From positions 1,221,623 through 1,285,622 of the forward strand of contig JAEPNK010000001.1 in NCBI GenBank assembly GCA_017643495.1: a DNA stretch of 64,000 bases, read 5' to 3'. The DNA is from Rhizobiaceae bacterium. GTDB taxonomy: Bacteria > Pseudomonadota > Alphaproteobacteria > Rhizobiales > Rhizobiaceae. Within the stretch, counting starts at the first letter, position 1. The number at the start of each line of letters is the position of its first letter. The translations under genes were made by a program, and so were the position numbers. The notes below the pieces were generated by a model. That model was not told the origin of the DNA. It did no database searches and was given only the letters and a program-made list of their open reading frames with translations. Positions 44,178 to 52,932 of the stretch are shown here, piece after piece.

Positions 44178-44344
44178 GAACAAAGGTTCCCGGTTGATAT
44201 TTGGGCGCAACCTATTCGTTCAATTCTGGTTCGGCAAGTTGCGAAATCCGGTTATCTGTCAGTCATTCCTTTCGGGTTGCAAGCTTGACCGCACCAATTC
44301 TCCACCTGTTGTGAAAAATGTCCTTGTTTCGGAAAGAAACAATG

Positions 44345-44373
44345 TTGCAGCCGACGTCTCTTGTCGCTATAGA
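44345..44373 (+). promoter_or_regulatory. Promoter of tRNA-Gln
   Basis: TTGCAG (44345-44350) and TATAGA (44368-44373) are 17 bases apart, ending 12 bases before the tRNA. This is a good sigma70-type match. Confidence 0.7.
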
Positions 44374-44385
44374 GTGCGTCAGCGT

Positions 44386-44460
44386 TGGGGTGTAGCCAAG
44401 CGGTAAGGCAGCGGTTTTTGGTATCGCCATGCGCAGGTTCGAATCCTGCCACCCCAGCCA
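44386..44460 (+). tRNA. tRNA-Gln (anticodon TTG)
   Basis: A 75-base cloverleaf. The acceptor TGGGGTG pairs with CACCCCA and a CCA tail is encoded. The anticodon stem GCGGT/ATCGC holds a TTTTGGT loop, anticodon TTG, and the T arm is GCAGG-TTCGAAT-CCTGC. The gene stands alone with its own promoter. Confidence 0.97.
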
Positions 44461-44611
44461 CTCTGTCGCCCATCCCCTCAAAATTCCCGTTTTGCATCAC
44501 TGCCATGCAGCAAACTGTAGCCTTTCAGACGGCTGCGCAAGAACTGTGACTGAGGCCCGGTGTGTTCAAACAGGCATTGAACGTATGTGCCGGGACTGGG
44601 AATATTGCGGT

Positions 44612-45022
44612 TCAGTATTTCATATTCTGAACATCGGCTATCGACGTGGTTGCAAAGCGTTCAACCAGTTCCCGTTCAATACCTTCCAGCACTTTCGAGA
44701 CTTGTTCATGCAAGGCATGCTCGATGGAACAATGATGGTTTGCATGAGGGTCATCCGGCGCGATCAGGCGTTCATCAAGGGCAAGATACACATCTGCAAG
44801 CGTGATTTCTTGCGGAGAACGGGCCAGTTTCCATCCTCCTGAATGGCCCTTTTCGGAGACCAATAACCCGGCTTTGCGCAATGGTCCCAAAACACGGCGG
44901 ACAACAACGGGGTTGGTCCCGGCATGTGCGGCAATGTCAGCTGAAGTCTTCCACTGTTTGGGCTCCGCCGCCATGTGGCCGAGCGTGTGCAAAGCAAGAG
45001 ACAGGCGGCTGTTGCGTTTCAT
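44612..45022 (-). CDS. Rrf2 family transcriptional regulator
   Basis: A 136-residue winged-helix regulator. The HTH is in SADIAAHAGTNPVVVRRVLGPLRKAGLL and the wing in SEKGHSGGWKLARSPQEITLADVYLALDE, both typical of Rrf2. Only one Cys (HHCSIEHAL) lies in the effector region, so it is not an obvious [2Fe-2S] IscR/NsrR-type sensor; His residues nearby could bind metal. It is divergent from a COG0523 metallochaperone gene, with two palindromes between them that could be its operators. Confidence 0.92.
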   Translation of the reverse strand: MKRNSRLSLALHTLGHMAAEPKQWKTSADIAAHAGTNPVVVRRVLGPLRKAGLLVSEKGHSGGWKLARSPQEITLADVYLALDERLIAPDDPHANHHCSIEHALHEQVSKVLEGIERELVERFATTSIADVQNMKY

Positions 45023-45050
45023 CTGTTGATCCCTTCCATTGCCATTTCAT

Positions 45051-45067
45051 GTAACAATTATAGTTGC
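45051..45067. promoter_or_regulatory. Operator-like palindrome 1, GTAAC-N7-GTTGC
   Basis: Arms GTAAC and GTTGC, extended by AT and AT to ATGTAAC/GTTGCAT, 6 of 7 symmetric. It lies 28 bp upstream of the Rrf2 gene start. Confidence 0.5.
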
Positions 45068-45076
45068 ATCACTCTA

Positions 45077-45093
45077 GTAACTGTGCCAGTTAC
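45077..45093. promoter_or_regulatory. Operator-like palindrome 2, GTAACTG-N3-CAGTTAC
   Basis: Perfect 7-bp arms with a TGC centre. The centre is 26 bp from that of the first palindrome, which shares GTAAC-N7-GTTRC. It lies 33 bp upstream of the COG0523 start. Confidence 0.6.
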
Positions 45094-45126
45094 GTGAAAA
45101 CGAATTCTTGTATAGAGGTATGATCT

Positions 45127-46338
45127 ATGTCTGATCCCCGTCTTCCTGTCACGGTGCTTTCCGGATTTCTGGGTGCCGGAAAGACCACATTGCTCAACCG
45201 TGTTCTGAACAATCGCGAAGGCCGTCGTGTAGCGGTGATCGTAAACGACATGTCTGAGGTCAATATCGATGTTGACCTTGTCCGGGCAGACACGGAACTG
45301 AGCCGTACTGATGAAACGCTTGTTGAGATGTCTAACGGTTGTATTTGCTGCACATTGCGTGATGACTTGTTGAAAGAAGTGCGTCGTCTGGCAGGCGAGG
45401 GGCGGTTTGACTATCTCCTGATTGAATCCACCGGCATTTCGGAACCTCTGCCGGTGGCAGCAACATTCGACTTTCGTGATGAGGCTGGCGCCAGTTTGTC
45501 AGATGTATCCCGTATCGACACGATGGTCACGGTTGTTGATGCCGTAAACCTGCTCAGGGATTACGCATCACATGATTTCCTCCATGACCGGGGAGAGGCG
45601 CTCGGGGAAGAGGATGAACGCACGCTCGTACACCTGCTGACAGACCAGATCGAGTTTGCCGATGTTGTGATTCTCAACAAGGTGAGTGATGCAGGGGCCG
45701 ATCGTGTGGATGCCGCACGCAAGATCATTCGCAGTTTGAATGCGGATGCGCGGATCATCGAAGCCGACCATTCCGATGTTCCGGCCGAAGCGATTCTGGA
45801 TACAGGCCTGTTTGATTTTGAAAAGGCCCATGAACATCCGATGTGGGCGAAGGAGCTTTACGGATTTGCAGACCATGTTCCGGAAACCGAGGAATATGGG
45901 GTTGCGTCCTATGTCTACCGGGCCCGGCAACCATTTGTTCCGGAGAAAGTCGCTGAGGTTCTGAATGGAGAAATGCCGGGAGTGATCCGGGCAAAGGGAC
46001 ATTTCTGGCTGGCCACACGTCCTGATTGGGTGGCGGAGTTTTCTCTGGCTGGAGCGCTGTCGTCAGTAGTTCCGCTCGGGATCTGGTGGGCAAGTGTTCC
46101 CGAAGAACGCCGACCCACCCATGAAGCCGGACGCTCATACCTTCAGGCGCATTGGCAGGAGCCCTGGGGAGACCGACGACAGGAAATTGTTTTCATTGGT
46201 TCCGGGATTGACTGGATGTCATTGAAGGCGCGTCTTGATGATTGTCTGGTTCCTGTAACCGAGGCATCAAGTATTGAAGAGCTGCCCGACTACCCGGATC
46301 CCTTTCCCGACTGGAGACGTAAAGAGCAAGCCGCATGA
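45127..46338 (+). CDS. COG0523 (CobW/ZigA-like) GTP-binding metallochaperone
   Basis: A 403-residue G3E GTPase that probably delivers zinc or another metal. Walker A is [11 protein letters not shown] at 13-23, the metal motif is GCICC at 71-75 with C72, C74 and C75, and ESTGISEP and NKVSD nucleotide motifs follow. The CobW C-terminal domain is present ([25 protein letters not shown]). GAGG precedes the ATG at 45127. It overlaps DUF1826 by 4 bp and is divergent from an Rrf2 regulator, so the three form a likely metal-homeostasis unit. Confidence 0.92.
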
Positions 46339-46967
46339 CCCTTGTTCGGGAAACAGTCAGGGATGCCGCAGTCGGGGTTGGTATAACCGATACTGCCGAA
46401 GGCCTGTCCGTTATTCACAAACCGGGCAGTGCTGCTGCTATCTGGCGGCGCAATCCGGTTCCGGGTTTTCAACCATGGATCGACGGATTGCAGCCCGAAC
46501 ATTTGCCGAAGGCTCGTGTTATCCTGCCACGTCAAAACGTGCGTGAAGTTGTTGGTCAAATCTGTGATTCATGTAGGACACCTGATGGCGGCGAACGCAA
46601 GGTGTTTATTGACGATGTTGTGGCACTTGCTGACATCTTTGCCAGCATAGTACCGACGTCTTATCTTCAACTTCGGTTTGATGTCATAAACACGAATGCA
46701 TGCCGGAAATTTCATATCGATGCTGTAAAGGCACGTCTCGTCTGTACGTACAGGGGGACGGGCACACAATACGGAATCTCAACTGATGGTGAAGAACCGC
46801 GCCGTGTGTTCACTGTGCCAACGGGCTCAGTGATGATGTTGCGTGGCACATTGTGGCCGGAAAACCCGAAGTCCGGACTGCTCCACCGTTCTCCACCGAT
46901 TGAAGGGAGCGGAGAAACCAGGTTGTTGCTTGTGCTGGACCCGGTCGATGCGCCTGTGAAAGAGTGA
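46335..46967 (+). CDS. DUF1826 family protein
   Basis: A 210-residue protein of a family often found beside COG0523 genes in low-zinc regulons; function unknown. Characteristic regions are [18 protein letters not shown] and [37 protein letters not shown] near residues 112-148, the latter rich in potential metal ligands (Cys, His, Asp), then [14 protein letters not shown] and [21 protein letters not shown]. Its ATG overlaps the COG0523 stop (ATGA). Confidence 0.86.
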
Positions 46968-46988
46968 CGTGGTTGCGTGCTACGCCGG

Positions 46989-47636
46989 TCACCTGATGGT
47001 GCCCAGACAGGCATAGCCGCGATAGAGCGGATCGAACAGGCAGTTGCGGCCGTGTTGCATGGCAAAATCGTGGGCAACCTCTCCAAGCCCCTCACGTGGC
47101 GCTACATGAAACAGGTCGAGCCATTTTCGCAACACGAGACGTGACCATCCGGGCAGGCCGGATTGATCCCAGAAATCAACAAAGACCAGCTTGCCGTTAT
47201 CCGACAGTACACTGATTCCCTTTTGCAGCGCCTGATCCCATGGAGGGATCATGGACAGGGTGTAGGACATCAACACGGCGTCAAATGTCTGGCGGCCAAA
47301 CAGTTCTCCGGCATCAAACCGGGCAGCGTCAGCACAAGCCAGCCTGATACGCTCGGACAGGCCTACCTTTGCGATGGAGGAGCGGGCGGTGGAGAGCATT
47401 TCAGATGAGATATCCAGCCCGTGAAATGTAACATCCGGATACTGTCTTGCCGCGATGATCAGGTTGCGTCCGGTGCCGCAACCGATTTCCAGTACATGCC
47501 CTCCTGATGGTGGGGTAAGTTCGCTGATTGCACGGTCCCGCCCCAGCAAATAGTATTTTCTGGTCAGGTCATAGATATGGCGCTGCCGGGCATAAACGCC
47601 ATCCATGAGCTTCGCATGGGCCATGTTGCCGGTCAC
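46989..47636 (-). CDS. btaB: BtaB, diacylglyceryl-homoserine N-methyltransferase
   Basis: Triple N-methylation of DGHS to the betaine lipid DGTS, on the inner face of the membrane. The 215-residue class I methyltransferase has VLEIGCGTGRNL for SAM, FHGLDISSEMLSTAR, LMSYTLSMIPPW and KLVFVDFWDQSGLPGWSRL. The BtaB N-terminus DGVYARQRHIYDLTRKYYLLGRDR is clear. It starts at GTG 47636, 3 bp after the btaA stop, with AGGGG upstream; ATG 47624 is an alternative. Context with btaA makes the call firm. Confidence 0.92.
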   Translation of the reverse strand: MTGNMAHAKLMDGVYARQRHIYDLTRKYYLLGRDRAISELTPPSGGHVLEIGCGTGRNLIIAARQYPDVTFHGLDISSEMLSTARSSIAKVGLSERIRLACADAARFDAGELFGRQTFDAVLMSYTLSMIPPWDQALQKGISVLSDNGKLVFVDFWDQSGLPGWSRLVLRKWLDLFHVAPREGLGEVAHDFAMQHGRNCLFDPLYRGYACLGTIR

Positions 47637-47639
47637 TGC

Positions 47640-48965
47640 TCAACCCCTGAAAACGTAGAGATGAAATCCGCCGTAAATCGATGACCGGTCTCTGGCATGA
47701 AATGCGAGCGATTCCTCCATGCGGTAGTCCCACTGCTTGAGGATATGGTCAGCCACCCGGCCGGGCAGGAGTGTTGGTTCTGCCGCAGTGCGGAAAATCA
47801 CACGTGCTCCCGGGGCAGCTGTCCGGGTAATCTCGTTCCACAGTTCATTGAGCTGGTTGTCATTCATCCAGTCCTGGGCATCCAGCAGAACATATCCGCC
47901 CATTGAATTGTCCGGCTCTCTTTTGAGCCGTTCCGTAAAGGAAACATTCTCGATGCTGATCCGGTCGGACCGTTCACGGATTTGGGCAAAATTTGCTTCT
48001 TTCAGGTAAGGGGGAAGTGGCCCTGATGGACCACCTCCATAGCGTTTGCCAAATGCCTGCCACGCGAAGTAGTTTTCCGAAAGGTCAAAATTGCAGGCAA
48101 GGTTCTCAAGACGTTGCTTCAGCACTTCCGACATGCGTCCGTTGCCGGCTGACGCCAGCGCCTCGTATTGCATCGGCGGAATGCCGAGACCGTAAAGTGA
48201 AACCTTCTTGGAAGTCATCCACCTGACGACCCGCTTGTCGAACAGCGGAGCCAGACGTTTTTCGAAGAAGCTGCGCTGTTCCTCACGCGAACTGGTCTGG
48301 GTGATTTCCTGCAGGTTGACGCCGTAGGCACGGGCAATCAGGTGTCCGGCCCAAATAAAGTATCCCAGCAAACCGTGCTGGTAGAGATCCCGCGAAAACA
48401 GGGTAATGCGCTTGCGCCGGAACATGTCTCTCTGTTCCCAGTATGCTTCAACATTCCTGTCGATGTTTCCCTTGAGGAACCGCTTGTATGCCGCAAGGTT
48501 TGCCTTCTCGTTGGCTTCTGCAAAGAAACGGTAGAAAACACCGTAATTCGGCAGGCGGCGCACGCCTTCCACTTTCAGTTTTGAAAGGGCTATGTGCGCC
48601 GTGTTGAGGTCGACTGCAATTATCTCTTTCGGATCGGCTGTCAGATAGGACAGCATGTTGCATCCCCCGGACGTAATCGTAATGATCCTGGTATCCGGCT
48701 GGATGGCAAGCGCCTCCATGTCGACTTCCGGGTCCTCCCAAATCTGGGGGTAAACCAGCCCCTTGAACATCCATGTAAACATCCGCTCAGCAAGGCCGTG
48801 CCCTGCCTGGGCCTTGCTGATCAGCGAGCCGGAATGTCTGGTTGAATTTGTGGTTGTTTCTGGAGCAGGAATATCAGTCACTTGAATGTCCGAATGCTGG
48901 TTGAACCGTTCCGCTTCACGGAAAGCTTGGTGTGAACCGGGTATCTGTTCGTAGCTTTGGGACAT
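47640..48965 (-). CDS. btaA: BtaA, S-adenosylmethionine:diacylglycerol 3-amino-3-carboxypropyltransferase
   Basis: Transfers the 3-amino-3-carboxypropyl group of SAM to diacylglycerol, making DGHS, the first step of betaine-lipid (DGTS) synthesis. The 441-residue frame contains FKGLVYPQIWEDPEVDMEAL, RIITITSGGCNMLSYL, NPA-type AVDLNTAHIALSKLK, and a C-terminal SAM-fold repeat (YVLLDAQDWMNDNQLNELWNEI). The N-terminal 50 residues are poorly conserved. The ATG at 48965 lies in a candidate PHO box and has no good ribosome site. A GTG at 48881 is an alternative start that would give 413 residues. Confidence 0.93.
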   Translation of the reverse strand: MSQSYEQIPGSHQAFREAERFNQHSDIQVTDIPAPETTTNSTRHSGSLISKAQAGHGLAERMFTWMFKGLVYPQIWEDPEVDMEALAIQPDTRIITITSGGCNMLSYLTADPKEIIAVDLNTAHIALSKLKVEGVRRLPNYGVFYRFFAEANEKANLAAYKRFLKGNIDRNVEAYWEQRDMFRRKRITLFSRDLYQHGLLGYFIWAGHLIARAYGVNLQEITQTSSREEQRSFFEKRLAPLFDKRVVRWMTSKKVSLYGLGIPPMQYEALASAGNGRMSEVLKQRLENLACNFDLSENYFAWQAFGKRYGGGPSGPLPPYLKEANFAQIRERSDRISIENVSFTERLKREPDNSMGGYVLLDAQDWMNDNQLNELWNEITRTAAPGARVIFRTAAEPTLLPGRVADHILKQWDYRMEESLAFHARDRSSIYGGFHLYVFRG

Positions 48966-48992
48966 GACTGTACGGTGACAGTTCGATGAAGG
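48964..48992 (-). promoter_or_regulatory. Putative PHO box at btaA
   Basis: On the minus strand CCTTCAT, CTGTCAC and CAGTCAT follow each other at exact 11-bp spacing. The PhoB consensus is CTGTCAT repeated every 11 bp. The last unit overlaps the annotated ATG of btaA. Confidence 0.6.
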
Positions 48993-49035
48993 AATTTTGG
49001 CAACCAATCCCGGGCAGTGGACAATTTGGCTGCGT

Positions 49036-49053
49036 AATTCATCAAACTGTCAT
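49036..49053 (+). promoter_or_regulatory. Weak PHO-box-like repeat upstream of aqpS
   Basis: A perfect CTGTCAT unit (49047-49053) preceded at 11 bp by AATTCAT (4 of 7). It is 86 bp upstream of the aqpS start in the shared btaA/aqpS gap. Confidence 0.35.
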
Positions 49054-49138
49054 GTAATGCGGTTAGGCGAACACACTTGGTCGTATGGCCTCGCAAGACG
49101 GGATGTCCTGTTTGTCAGGTACATTGCAGGAAATGACA

Positions 49139-49828
49139 ATGTCAGAAATTTCGACAGCGCAAAAGGTGACCGCAGAATTTACCGGCACCGCCTTTCTTCT
49201 GGCGACAGTGGTGGGTTCCGGCATAATGGCGGAAAATCTGGCTGGCGGTAATGTGGCTGTTGCCCTGATGGGCAATACCATTCCGACCGGTGCAATCCTT
49301 TATGTCCTGATCACAATGCTTGGACCTGTGTCCGGTGCCCATTTCAATCCTGCTGTCACGTTGGTATTCCGGCTCAAAAAGGAAATTTCCGGCCATCTTT
49401 CGTTGATTTACGTGTTGGCGCAGATAGCAGGCGGCATTCTCGGTGTCTTTGTTGCCCATTTGATGTTCGAGGTCGACATGCTGCAATTCTCGCAAAAGGC
49501 AAGGACCGGAAGTCCCCAGTGGTTCGCAGAAATGGTTGCCACTTTCGGTCTTGTCGTCACCATCCTTGGTACGCTGAAGGCAAGGACCGGGGCGGTGCCA
49601 CTTGCTGTCGGTCTGTATATTACTGCCGCCTACTGGTTTACTGCATCAACTTCATTTGCAAACCCTGCAGTCACGATCGCCCGTTCACTTTCAAACACCT
49701 TTTCAGGTATTGCCCCTGCCCATGTTGGTGCATTTGTACTCGCACAATTGGCCGGTGCAGTGATTGCCTGGCTCTATTGCAAATGGCAGTTTGAGAGAAA
49801 GTCAGAATCGCAAGGAAAACATGCATGA
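49139..49828 (+). CDS. aqpS: AqpS-like aquaglyceroporin (MIP family)
   Basis: A 229-residue MIP channel with six spans. The two NPA boxes are at 70-72 (GAHFNPAVTL) and 175-177 (FANPAVTIARS) with the selectivity Arg at 182. It is fused in position to arsC (4-bp overlap), as in the Sinorhizobium ars operon where AqpS, a downhill arsenite exit channel, replaces ArsB. ATG 49139 has AGGA upstream. I see no arsR or arsH alongside. Confidence 0.85.
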   Translation: MSEISTAQKVTAEFTGTAFLLATVVGSGIMAENLAGGNVAVALMGNTIPTGAILYVLITMLGPVSGAHFNPAVTLVFRLKKEISGHLSLIYVLAQIAGGILGVFVAHLMFEVDMLQFSQKARTGSPQWFAEMVATFGLVVTILGTLKARTGAVPLAVGLYITAAYWFTASTSFANPAVTIARSLSNTFSGIAPAHVGAFVLAQLAGAVIAWLYCKWQFERKSESQGKHA

Positions 49829-50172
49829 CTATTGTTGTTCACCACAATCCGGGTTGCGGCACTTCCAGGAACGTTCTTGAAATTATCCGGAACTCCGGGG
49901 AAGAGCCGGTCGTGATCGAGTATCTTGACGAAGGCTGGACGCGCGCCCAGTTGCTGGGGCTTTTTGCGGCGGCCGACATCACTCCGAGAGAAGCCTTGCG
50001 CGTTCAGCGTTCACCGGCAGAAGAGCTTGGGTTGCTTGAGGACGGCGTGAGCGAGGAAGCGATTCTCGATGCGATGATCGAGCATCCGGTTCTCGTTAAC
50101 CGTCCGATTGTGTGCACACCGAAAGGTGTCCGGCTTTGCCGCCCTTCCGAGACGGTTGAAATACTGCTGTAA
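49825..50172 (+). CDS. arsC: Arsenate reductase, glutaredoxin-coupled ArsC
   Basis: Reduces arsenate to arsenite with glutathione and glutaredoxin. The 115-residue protein has the nucleophile C11 in HHNPGCGTSRN, and the three anion-binding arginines R59, R93 and R106 in the same pattern as E. coli ArsC (60, 94, 107), including NRPIVCTPKGVRLCRP. It starts inside the aqpS stop codon (ATGA), so product arsenite and its channel are made together. It converges on agt. Confidence 0.93.
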   Translation: MTIVVHHNPGCGTSRNVLEIIRNSGEEPVVIEYLDEGWTRAQLLGLFAAADITPREALRVQRSPAEELGLLEDGVSEEAILDAMIEHPVLVNRPIVCTPKGVRLCRPSETVEILL

Positions 50173-50186
50173 CCCCGCAAGGCCGG

Positions 50187-51266
50187 TCAGCCGTTTCTCA
50201 TTTCAGCCTTCAGTTTTTGTTCCGGTTCTTCAACTGGGTGCTGCCGGCCTCTCACCGGGACCAGATTGTCGAGCAGCATCCGTGCCGTATTTTCCCACGT
50301 ATACGTCGCCGCGTGCGCTTTTGCATCTTCTCGTTCAAGGGTGAGTCCTCGTTCGATGGCCTTGGAAAGGTCCTTGTCGAGTGCTCCCGAAACCCCGTCC
50401 TGGACAACATCGACCGGCCCCATGACAGGATAGGCGGCAACGGGAAGACCACAGGCCATCGCCTCTATCATGACAAGGCCGAAAGTGTCGCTCTTGCTTG
50501 GGAAAACGAACAGGTCGGCACTGTTTATCTTGCGGGCAAGTTCTTCGCCGAACAGGTATCCGGTGAAGACGGCATCAGGATATTTTTTCTCCAGCCGCGC
50601 ACGTGACGGGCCGTCACCAATTACAAGCTTGGTCCCGTCCACCTTTGCTCCAAGAAAGTCCTCAATTCCCTTTTCAATGGCGAGCCTGCCAACATAGGCA
50701 AGTACCGGTCGTTCAGTTCCCGGCGGCGGTTTCTCCCTATAATCCCTGAATGTCTGGTGATCGACCCCGCGCGTCCAGGTTATGACATTGCGGAACCCTT
50801 TTTCTTCAAGGTCCCGGCTTATGCTTTTTGTCGGTGTAAGGACGGCTTTGCTGGGTCGGTGAAACCATCGCAACAAGGCGTATACTGCTTTTACCACACC
50901 AGGTACAGGAAGGCGCGCTGAAGCATATTCTGCAAATCGTGTGTGGTAACCGGTGGTAAAACTAAGGCCGTTGTTCAGGCAGTAACGCCGCATCGCCAAA
51001 CCAACAGGCCCTTCCGTTGCAATGTGGATGCAATCGGGTTCGAAGGTTTTTACCTCTGCGGCTATTTCCTTTTGCGAAAAATGCGCAAGCCGGATTTCCG
51101 GATAGAACGGCAATGGCCAGGTTTTTTTCCCCTCATGGGAAAACACCTTCACTGTATGGCCAAGCTGAACAAGTGTTCTTGCTGTATTGTCGAGAGTGCG
51201 AACAACCCCGTTAACCTGCGGATACCAGGCGTCTGTCGCGATCATCAAGCGTGTTGGTTTCATCAT
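50187..51266 (-). CDS. agt: GT4 glycosyltransferase, probable diacylglycerol glycosyltransferase (Agt-like)
   Basis: A 359-residue GT-B family 4 enzyme. N-terminal RLMIATDAWYPQVNGVVRTLDNTARTL and C-terminal PVLAYVGRLAIEKGIEDFLGA, GDGPSRARLEKKYPDAVFTGYL and SDTFGLVMIEAMACGLPVAA (donor-binding Glu pair) are typical. Its start lies inside the 3' end of plcP (56-bp overlap), and plcP-agt is the known pair that makes glycolipids from DAG in phosphate-starved Alphaproteobacteria. The context therefore suggests glycosylation of diacylglycerol to glucosyl or glucuronosyl lipids. GGAG precedes ATG 51266. Confidence 0.82.
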   Translation of the reverse strand: MMKPTRLMIATDAWYPQVNGVVRTLDNTARTLVQLGHTVKVFSHEGKKTWPLPFYPEIRLAHFSQKEIAAEVKTFEPDCIHIATEGPVGLAMRRYCLNNGLSFTTGYHTRFAEYASARLPVPGVVKAVYALLRWFHRPSKAVLTPTKSISRDLEEKGFRNVITWTRGVDHQTFRDYREKPPPGTERPVLAYVGRLAIEKGIEDFLGAKVDGTKLVIGDGPSRARLEKKYPDAVFTGYLFGEELARKINSADLFVFPSKSDTFGLVMIEAMACGLPVAAYPVMGPVDVVQDGVSGALDKDLSKAIERGLTLEREDAKAHAATYTWENTARMLLDNLVPVRGRQHPVEEPEQKLKAEMRNG

Positions 51267-52038
51267 TGGTGATCTCCAGTCCCTGAAAACGGGTCCAGTC
51301 AAGCAGTTCGAACCGGCCGTCAGAATGCTCGACCAGGGCAGAACAGGATTCCACCCAATCACCGTCATTGCAGTAATGTATGCCGTTGATCATGCGCATT
51401 TCCGGTGTGTGAATGTGCCCGCAGACTACGCCGTCCACTTTCTTTTCCTGGGCGCGACGGACAACAGCCTCCTCGAAATTCCCGATGAACTCCACGGCAC
51501 GCTTTACCCGGCGTTTCAGGAAGGCTGAAAGGGACCAGTAGGGCAGGCCGATGAGACGGCGGGCCTTGTTGTAATAGTGGTTCAGGGAAACTGCGGTCTC
51601 GTATGCGCGGTCACCCAGAAACGCGAGCCATTTTGCATAGAGGACAACGCCGTCGAACTCGTCACCATGAAGGATGAGATAACGTTTTCCGTCTGCTGTT
51701 TTGTGAATGTCATTCAGCCGGATTTGTATCCGCCCGAAATCATTGTTGGTGAAGGCACGCAATGCTTCATCGTGATTGCCCGGAATGTAGACAACTTTTG
51801 TACCCTTGCGCGCCTTGCGAAGGATTTTCTGTATCACGTCATTATGTGTCTGCTGCCAGAACCATTTGCGCTTCAATGCCCAGTTGTCGATGATGTCACC
51901 GACCAGATAAAGCTTTTCACACTCCACATGTTTCAGAAAATGCAGGAGCAAATCGGTTCTTGAGCGTTTGGTGCCGAGATGGATGTCTGAGATGAATACG
52001 GTACGGTATTTCATGTTCAGCGGCTGGAGCACGTCCAT
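51211..52038 (-). CDS. plcP: PlcP-like phospholipase C (calcineurin-fold metallophosphoesterase)
   Basis: Converts phosphatidylcholine or phosphatidylethanolamine to diacylglycerol in phosphate-starved cells. The 275-residue metallophosphoesterase has the full metal set: SDIHLG (residues 18-23), VGDIIDNW, IPGNHDEAL, HGDEFDG and CGHIHTPEM. It is often annotated UDP-2,3-diacylglucosamine diphosphatase (LpxH-like) because the fold is shared. Adjacent agt and nearby btaA/btaB favour the phospholipase role. ATG 52038 has AAGG at 8 bases. PHO-box-like repeats lie just upstream. Confidence 0.85.
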   Translation of the reverse strand: MDVLQPLNMKYRTVFISDIHLGTKRSRTDLLLHFLKHVECEKLYLVGDIIDNWALKRKWFWQQTHNDVIQKILRKARKGTKVVYIPGNHDEALRAFTNNDFGRIQIRLNDIHKTADGKRYLILHGDEFDGVVLYAKWLAFLGDRAYETAVSLNHYYNKARRLIGLPYWSLSAFLKRRVKRAVEFIGNFEEAVVRRAQEKKVDGVVCGHIHTPEMRMINGIHYCNDGDWVESCSALVEHSDGRFELLDWTRFQGLEITNDETNTLDDRDRRLVSAG

Positions 52039-52077
52039 GGCAAGACCTTCTCACTTGGTTATGGTCTTCGCTTAGCC

Positions 52078-52124
52078 GTGACAGATGACAGTTGGAAGAA
52101 GCTTCCGTGACGCCTTGGTGACAG
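52078..52124 (-). promoter_or_regulatory. Putative PHO boxes upstream of plcP
   Basis: On the minus strand CTGTCAC (from 52124), GCGTCAC (52113), a poor unit (52102) and CTGTCAT (52091) occur at exact 11-bp intervals. A second CTGTCAC abuts the last. The array ends 39 bases before the plcP start, the right distance for a PhoB-activated promoter. Confidence 0.7.
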
Positions 52125-52185
52125 GGTCAGTTAGCCACAAGTTTGCAGCAGTCTTGGCCGCTTGCTGATTGCGGTTGTTTCCCGC

Positions 52186-52932
52186 TCAGGCCGATGCAAT
52201 GAACGGACCGTTCCGGTATTCGTCTTTGCCGTAGAGGAACGGGGTGTTTTCAGGTGTTGTCACGTGACCACCGGCTGCCAGCAACACGGCTTGTCCGGCT
52301 GCAGTATCCCATTCCATGGTTGGGCCGAAACGCGGATATATGTCCGCCTCGCCGCTTGCCACCAGACAGAACTTCAGCGACGAACCGATGGATACGGTTC
52401 TGGATATGTTGTTCTCGGCAAGCCACTGGTTGGTCATCTCGTCCCTGTGCGACGCACTGGCAACGGCGGTTCGCTCGCCGTTGTGCGGTTTTCTTGCATG
52501 TATGGGCTGTTCGTTCAAAAAGGCGCCGTCGCCGGTTGAGCCGGTAAACATCTTTTCGAGGGCGGGTGCATAGACAATGCCCAGAACCGGAACCCGGTTT
52601 TCCACGAGGCCTATATTGACAGTGAAGCTTCCCTTGCCGTCGCGTTTCAGGAATTCCTTTGTGCCGTCCAGAGGGTCCACGAGAAAGAATCTGTCTGGCG
52701 CATCGATGGCATGGCTGTTTGCGTTTTCCTCGGAAATGATCGTGATATCCGGTGCGTGTTGACGCAGGGCAGCGAGCAGGATGGTTTCAGCTTTCTGGTC
52801 TGCTTCTGTTACCGGTGAGCCGTCAAGCTTGATTTCCGCATCCGGGTTGCGGTGATAGATACGCATGATTTCATCACCTGCCAGTCGCACTGCCGGAACT
52901 AGCTTTTCAATCAGTTCTTTTCTATAGGGCAT
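52186..52932 (-). CDS. cysQ: 3'(2'),5'-bisphosphate nucleotidase CysQ
   Basis: Removes the 3'-phosphate of PAP formed in sulfate assimilation. The 248-residue inositol-monophosphatase-fold protein has GSPVTEADQKAE, IISEEN, the metal loop DPLDGTKEF (about residues 86-94) and the distal WDTAAGQAVLLAAGG. Length and order are typical. It starts 65 bp from the putA stop on the same strand. Confidence 0.93.
   Translation of the reverse strand: MPYRKELIEKLVPAVRLAGDEIMRIYHRNPDAEIKLDGSPVTEADQKAETILLAALRQHAPDITIISEENANSHAIDAPDRFFLVDPLDGTKEFLKRDGKGSFTVNIGLVENRVPVLGIVYAPALEKMFTGSTGDGAFLNEQPIHARKPHNGERTAVASASHRDEMTNQWLAENNISRTVSIGSSLKFCLVASGEADIYPRFGPTMEWDTAAGQAVLLAAGGHVTTPENTPFLYGKDEYRNGPFIASA

Follow-up and report, generated by a model that had tools for sequence, protein, structure and literature searches.

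We analysed a 64,000-nucleotide stretch of DNA from a Rhizobiaceae bacterium (contig JAEPNK010000001.1; hereafter the window), focusing on a compact block of six genes that a first-pass annotation had read as a phosphate-starvation island for remodelling membrane lipids, with arsenic genes in it. The block holds btaA and btaB, an aqpS-like gene and arsC, and an agt-like gene and plcP, together with candidate PHO boxes, the putative sites of the phosphate regulator PhoB (Table 1). All six open reading frames lie within the window at the coordinates first assigned to them, and Pfam and NCBIfam models confirmed the six proposed identities at the level of family. The genes form three units: btaA-btaB and plcP-agt run leftwards, while aqpS-arsC runs rightwards. 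The btaB-like gene starts 3 nt downstream of btaA, arsC overlaps aqpS by 4 nt, and agt, with candidate starts at 51266, 51263, 51248, and 51245, overlaps the end of plcP by 35–56 nt. Since the start codon drawn for btaA at 48965 overlaps the PHO array upstream of this gene, it is probably too far upstream. GTG at 48881 or ATG at 48782 is likelier, because promoter alignment puts a similar stretch at about the same distance after the box.

Table 1. Genes and candidate PHO sites of the six-gene block (window coordinates)
Feature	Position	Strand	Remarks
btaB-like methyltransferase	46989..47636	-	second gene of the btaA-btaB unit
btaA (DUF3419)	47640..48965 as drawn	-	PF11899
PHO array upstream of btaA	48964..49003	-	four half-sites, 11-bp phase, 21/28
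PHO box upstream of aqpS	49036..49053	+	11/14; 37-base likeness to plcP promoter
aqpS-like MIP channel	49139..49828	+	PF00230, two NPA motifs
arsC, glutaredoxin-type arsenate reductase	49825..50172	+	TIGR00014, active-site residues
agt-like GT4 glycosyltransferase	50187..51266	-	PF13692, PF00534, PF13439
plcP-type metallophosphoesterase	51211..52038	-	PF00149, GNHDE motif
PHO array upstream of plcP	52085..52124	-	four half-sites, 11-bp phase, 20/28

We characterized the lipid genes by comparison with family models, named homologues, and solved structures. BtaA matched the DUF3419 model in Pfam (E = 6.9e-110) and was 54–65% identical to its best 80 named homologues. The nearest named btaA genes are those of Stappia, Breoghania, Phyllobacterium, and their kin, and comparison with solved structures gave chance matches only. 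The window's BtaA is 65% identical to proteins from two genomes of other families (G083, family f24; G100, family f41) and at most 61% identical to those of its own family, a hint of transfer. BtaB matched only generic S-adenosylmethionine-dependent methyltransferase models in Pfam and NCBIfam (best E = 4.6e-18) and is named by its position; btaB lies downstream of btaA in 80 of the 80 named btaA loci examined. The agt-like protein carries three glycosyltransferase family 4 (GT4) domains, and its best matches among solved structures are tetrahydrobiopterin glucosyltransferases.

The plcP product has a single copy in the genome, and its gene overlaps agt and lies near btaAB. The solved structures nearest to it are LpxH enzymes (best E = 3.3e-4), which raises the alternative that the enzyme serves lipid A synthesis as a true LpxH and is no phospholipase. 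We consider this extremely improbable and rejected it on model scores, motif, and the presence of LpxI_C. The protein scored 53.5 and 43.4 bits against two LpxH models, far short of their cut-offs (134 and 190.35, respectively), while an LpxI_C match above cut-off was found elsewhere in the genome. The motif GNHDE is present in the window's protein and in 11/11 full-length homologues, whereas E. coli LpxH has GNRDF, and identity is 22% to E. coli LpxH compared to 51–68% to PlcP-type homologues. In addition, plcP lies beside agt or bta in relatives, and the rest of the genus (11 genomes) has no match to it. A FastTree phylogeny of 14 sequences, in which the only LpxH sits on a very long branch and one member is a partial copy of the window's plcP, is weak alone. 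The original distinction between PlcP and LpxH therefore survives on the model scores, the motif, the identity values, and LpxI_C.

To place the arsenic pair, we collected 154 aqpS loci, leaving out the lowest-scoring matches, and dropped 12 duplicates, so that 142 were used. An arsR was counted as near when its model match started between 1.2 kb before and 1.8 kb after the aqpS start. The window's channel matched its family model with E = 9.6e-26, and among solved structures it is nearest to NIP2-1 aquaporins, a class that also lets other small solutes through. ArsC matched PF03960 and passed TIGR00014 by less than 1 bit (106.5 bits, cut-off 106.05). Both observations would fit a channel that passes glycerol, silicic acid, or boric acid, next to an ArsC-family protein with some other job and no arsenic role for either. 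We judge this quite improbable, since alignment to E. coli ArsC (1jzw) revealed that the active-site cysteine and three arginines, which we take to be Cys12, Arg60, Arg94, and Arg107 of the E. coli enzyme, are all kept, and since the homologous aqpS genes are mostly near arsR (86/142 loci) and often near arsC or arsH too. In one related block described below (G315), ArsC (L326 11034-11378) has leucine at the position equivalent to Arg60, while the window and G270 keep arginine. A second ArsC-family protein is encoded in the window's own genome (C11:1059613-1059918; 59.3 bits, cut-off 24).

We determined whether the three units carry PHO boxes, using the pattern CTGTCATNNNNCTGTCAT, which was fixed before scanning and allowed up to three mismatches. 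The window contained 12 matches, compared to 4.93 expected, and none of 100 shuffles scored as high. Three of the 12 fall at 48964-49053, between btaA and aqpS. As the whole genome contains 435 matches (192 for the reversed pattern), a single weak match means little. Arrays of four half-sites in 11-bp phase were far rarer: only 2 of 127,922 window positions scored at least 20/28, and these are the arrays before btaA and plcP. The first-pass annotation had reported PHO-like repeats before these two genes, and the arrays make that case stronger than it was put. Scored as two half-sites, the btaA region reached 12/14 and 11/14. The box before aqpS had escaped the earlier reading.

The aqpS promoter also resembles that of plcP. 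The longest inverted repeat within 44200-52300 pairs the aqpS promoter (49038-49074) with the plcP promoter (52064-52100); 27 of 37 bases are identical, and 0/200 shuffled pairs were as high. A 16-base core common to the two was reached by 1/200 shuffles. The same core occurs in all three promoters, although the pattern was built from these sites, so the 3 matches (0.42 expected) are not independent. Because a box precedes aqpS and its promoter is like that of plcP, the arsenic pair looks co-regulated with the lipid genes. Among upstream regions of btaA, 22/87 reached at least 11/14 on the strand of the gene compared to 1/87 on the other strand. None of 8 agt upstream regions reached this score.

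We examined the 142 aqpS loci for a relationship between PHO boxes and arsR, defining a box as at least 11/14 within 200 bp before aqpS. PHO boxes were avoided where arsR was near: a box preceded aqpS in 12/56 loci without arsR and in 1/86 with arsR (Fisher P = 5.7e-5). The first 62 loci, scanned over 250 bp, had given 11/22 and 0/40, respectively, and the contrast became weaker on enlarging the sample. Upstream regions of other genes had boxes at similar rates in loci without arsR (3/302) and with it (3/361). In the window's genus, the boxes of two further aqpS genes score 14/14 (G005) and 13/14 (G001), and a third aqpS gene has no box, its best site reaching 9/14 (G008). When presence of a box was mapped on a maximum-likelihood tree of the 142 AqpS proteins, about 8 changes were counted, at least 6 of them forced by supported branches, with bootstrap unsettled. 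These changes suggest that control of aqpS switched more than once. In another locus (G022; L105 5725-7352), a COG0523-type GTPase (CobW/YjiA-like) is encoded directly after an aqpS that has a 12/14 box.

We also asked how often the lipid and arsenic genes are found together. Among the 80 named btaA loci, with flanks of up to 10 kb, some ended by contig edges, Pseudaminobacter arsenicus (L060) has plcP-agt-btaA-btaB and Aquamicrobium sp. LC103 (L072) has plcP-btaA-btaB (2/80 loci). Elsewhere plcP, agt, btaA, and btaB lie together in G038, G061, and G095, in G074 with agt in pieces, and in G088 without agt. The first-pass annotation had held it unusual to find both non-phosphorus lipid branches and arsenic genes in one block. 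Pairing of the branches is not unusual, as L060, G038, G061, and G095 have it (see also PMC4796936); the newer part of the claim is the link to arsenic genes.

Genes for bta and plcP lay within the stretch examined (from about 1.5 kb a side) in 3/142 aqpS loci: the window, G270, and G315. On wider stretches, both G270 and G315 proved to have all six genes together. In G270, the order is btaA-btaB-plcP-agt-aqpS-arsC in one direction, after phnL and phnM (NCBIfam, above cut-off). In G315, agt-plcP is divergent from btaA-btaB-aqpS-arsC, with ugp genes near; models for UgpE and UgpC were above cut-off and those for UgpB and UgpA below. Since the three genomes belong to different families (f1 for the window, f27 for G270, f23 for G315), no two share a gene order, and their aqpS genes fall at separate places in the aqpS tree, we infer that the association of aqpS with bta and plcP arose or was rearranged separately. 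In G315's own genus, arsR is near aqpS-arsC in G230 and G301, while both arsR and a box are missing in G409 and G427. Both aqpS and btaA occur in 71/397 genomes. Comparing coordinates by eye, we found the two within 5 kb in 3 of 65 genomes, 6 of the 71 having one place unlisted. Apart from the window's genome, 2 co-locations were seen in the 70 other genomes compared to 0.15 expected (P ~0.01, for an assumed mean genome size). Many assemblies are fragmented, and further co-locations may be hidden.

These results bear on whether the arsenic pair belongs to the block functionally. In one alternative, the lipid genes are Pho-regulated, while aqpS-arsC is an ordinary resistance pair that happens to lie between them and answers a distant ArsR. 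The frequency of arsR near aqpS genes elsewhere speaks for this, as does the second ArsC-family protein on C11, with which other ars genes may exist, and the window's aqpS box itself is only 11/14, its 16-base core having been matched by one shuffle. Nevertheless, we regard this alternative as unlikely. No arsR-model match lies closer than 3 kb to the aqpS of the window, where an arsR-controlled ars operon would have one; the 37-base likeness between the aqpS and plcP promoters and the 14/14 and 13/14 boxes in the same genus would be unexplained; and the pair recurs beside bta-plcP-agt in two other families.

We next considered the origin of the block. In the rest of the genus (11 genomes), plcP was without any match and btaA without one beyond a 24% match in G005, while aqpS was present in three at 68–71%. 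Counting the window's own, the genus is represented by 12 genomes, and only 4 of these are at least 90% complete and at most 5% contaminated. With plcP and btaA absent and aqpS present in the genus, the lipid genes appear to have been gained, or kept only, by the window's lineage. To the left of btaB (44386-46967) lie a tRNA-Gln gene, an Rrf2-family regulator, a ZigA-like zinc GTPase (581 bits, cut-off 600), and a DUF1826 protein, so that a zinc-starvation pair adjoins the phosphate-starvation block. Elsewhere in the genus, matches to the ZigA-like GTPase are only ~31%.

Such a distribution could mean that chance or a mobile island gathered these genes without any working link. The lack of plcP and true btaA in 11/11 other genomes of the genus, the absence there of a close zigA orthologue, and the tRNA-Gln gene at 44386 are all compatible with an island. 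Against it, GC content across the region is flat (0.51-0.57), the units share promoter sequences, and the same linkage is found in two other genomes, where ~0.15 would be expected, in other gene orders. No integrase was noticed among the open reading frames examined. We therefore consider an unlinked gathering very improbable.

The model that we favour, and think likely to be correct, is that the block works as one module under PhoB control, sparing phosphorus in the membrane and disposing of the arsenate let in by induced phosphate uptake. Arsenate is a poison taken up in mistake for phosphate. In this model, the three transcription units, each behind its own PhoB-type promoter, would be switched on when low phosphate activates PhoB. 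PlcP would split phospholipids into diacylglycerol and phosphoalcohol; the diacylglycerol would be converted to glycolipid by Agt and to the betaine lipid DGTS by BtaA and BtaB, freeing phosphorus. Since the induced high-affinity phosphate uptake would also admit arsenate, ArsC would reduce this to arsenite, which AqpS would let out. The trigger of arsenic defence would thus be phosphate scarcity rather than the arsenic sensor ArsR. PhoB binding, the substrates of the enzymes, the lipids made, and the direction of arsenite flow are predicted here from sequence. The phosphate-starvation reading of the block originally proposed is supported.

Several observations weigh against this model. Most arsR-less aqpS loci (44/56) have no box of at least 11/14, and the contrast with arsR loci is thin at low GC (<55%; 7/24 compared to 0/15, P = 0.03). 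The G270 and G315 blocks have no box of at least 11/14 either; the best site of each, lying ahead of btaA in G270 and of aqpS in G315, is 10/14. The window's plcP site scores only 10/14 as a two-half-site box, and only 3/10 plcP upstream regions reach 11/14. The substrate of the putative Agt, which is named on its GT4 domains, cannot be read from sequence. Lastly, the only perfect PHO-like box in the genome (L169 1501-1518; C11:732784) is near genes unlike Pho genes. It lies between look-alikes of a tctC-type protein and of a response regulator/sensor pair and may be the site of another OmpR-type regulator.

More broadly, and with somewhat less assurance than for the PhoB-controlled module itself, we lean towards a history in which arsenic defence moved more than once from ArsR to PhoB and, in at least three families, aqpS-arsC joined the lipid-remodelling block, making uptake, sparing, and disposal one anticipatory response. 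If this is true, arsenate disposal is armed whenever phosphate uptake rises, before arsenic arrives, which would provide a testable case of anticipatory regulation and would connect the chemistry of membrane lipids with the cycling of arsenic in habitats where phosphate is low. Surveys based on arsR would overlook this class, for which "PHO box or arsR before aqpS" could be a simple rule for finding further cases.

Parts of this arrangement have precedents, which we compared with the window using the available portions of the papers cited. In rhizobia, plcP and btaAB are controlled by PhoB, and glycolipid and DGTS are made (PMC3972451, PMC10315480). Marine heterotrophs have two types of plcP neighbourhood, type 1 with btaAB and type 2 with agt, that have putative Pho boxes and are associated with phosphorus-free lipids at low phosphate (PMC4796936). 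These resemble the window in having plcP beside btaA-btaB or agt. However, the types are described singly and "arsen" does not occur in the main text, while the window has both lipid branches and aqpS-arsC together. Among the matches listed in our literature search (mostly a title and the opening of an abstract, with few subscription journals), none joined plcP, bta, or agt to aqpS-arsC, and none reported PHO boxes before aqpS.

On the arsenic side, the ars operon of the Sinorhizobium meliloti type likewise provides an arsenite route consisting of a MIP channel and arsC (PMC4435449); the window differs in having no arsR near, a PHO box instead, and lipid genes on both sides. SAR11 strain HTCC7211 also pairs a reductase, LMW-ArsC, with AqpS, and this pair is commoner at low phosphate. 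However, its ArsC is of an unrelated family, and the accessible text describes no linkage to a Pho box or lipid genes (PMC6426599). The same source reports that the arsenate-to-phosphate ratio rises on phosphate depletion. Arsenic islands that include pst, phn, and pho genes and were formed independently across strains similarly place arsenic genes beside phosphate-starvation genes, but they are built around the arsenite oxidase aioBA, with arsB or acr3, and "lipid", "plcP", and "aqpS" do not occur in the main text (PMC3834237). In Halomonas HAL1, an arsenic gene, aioBA, has a Pho box and is under PhoB control at low phosphate, although the function is arsenite oxidation and not reduction and efflux, and the abstract mentions no lipid genes (PMC4563254). 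ArsR, in turn, is described as controlling a pst-phoB locus (PMC7965956). Thus, the coupling of arsenic with phosphate genes is already known, as is that of plcP with btaAB and with agt, and the newer part of our observation is that arsenic genes are linked to such a lipid-remodelling block.

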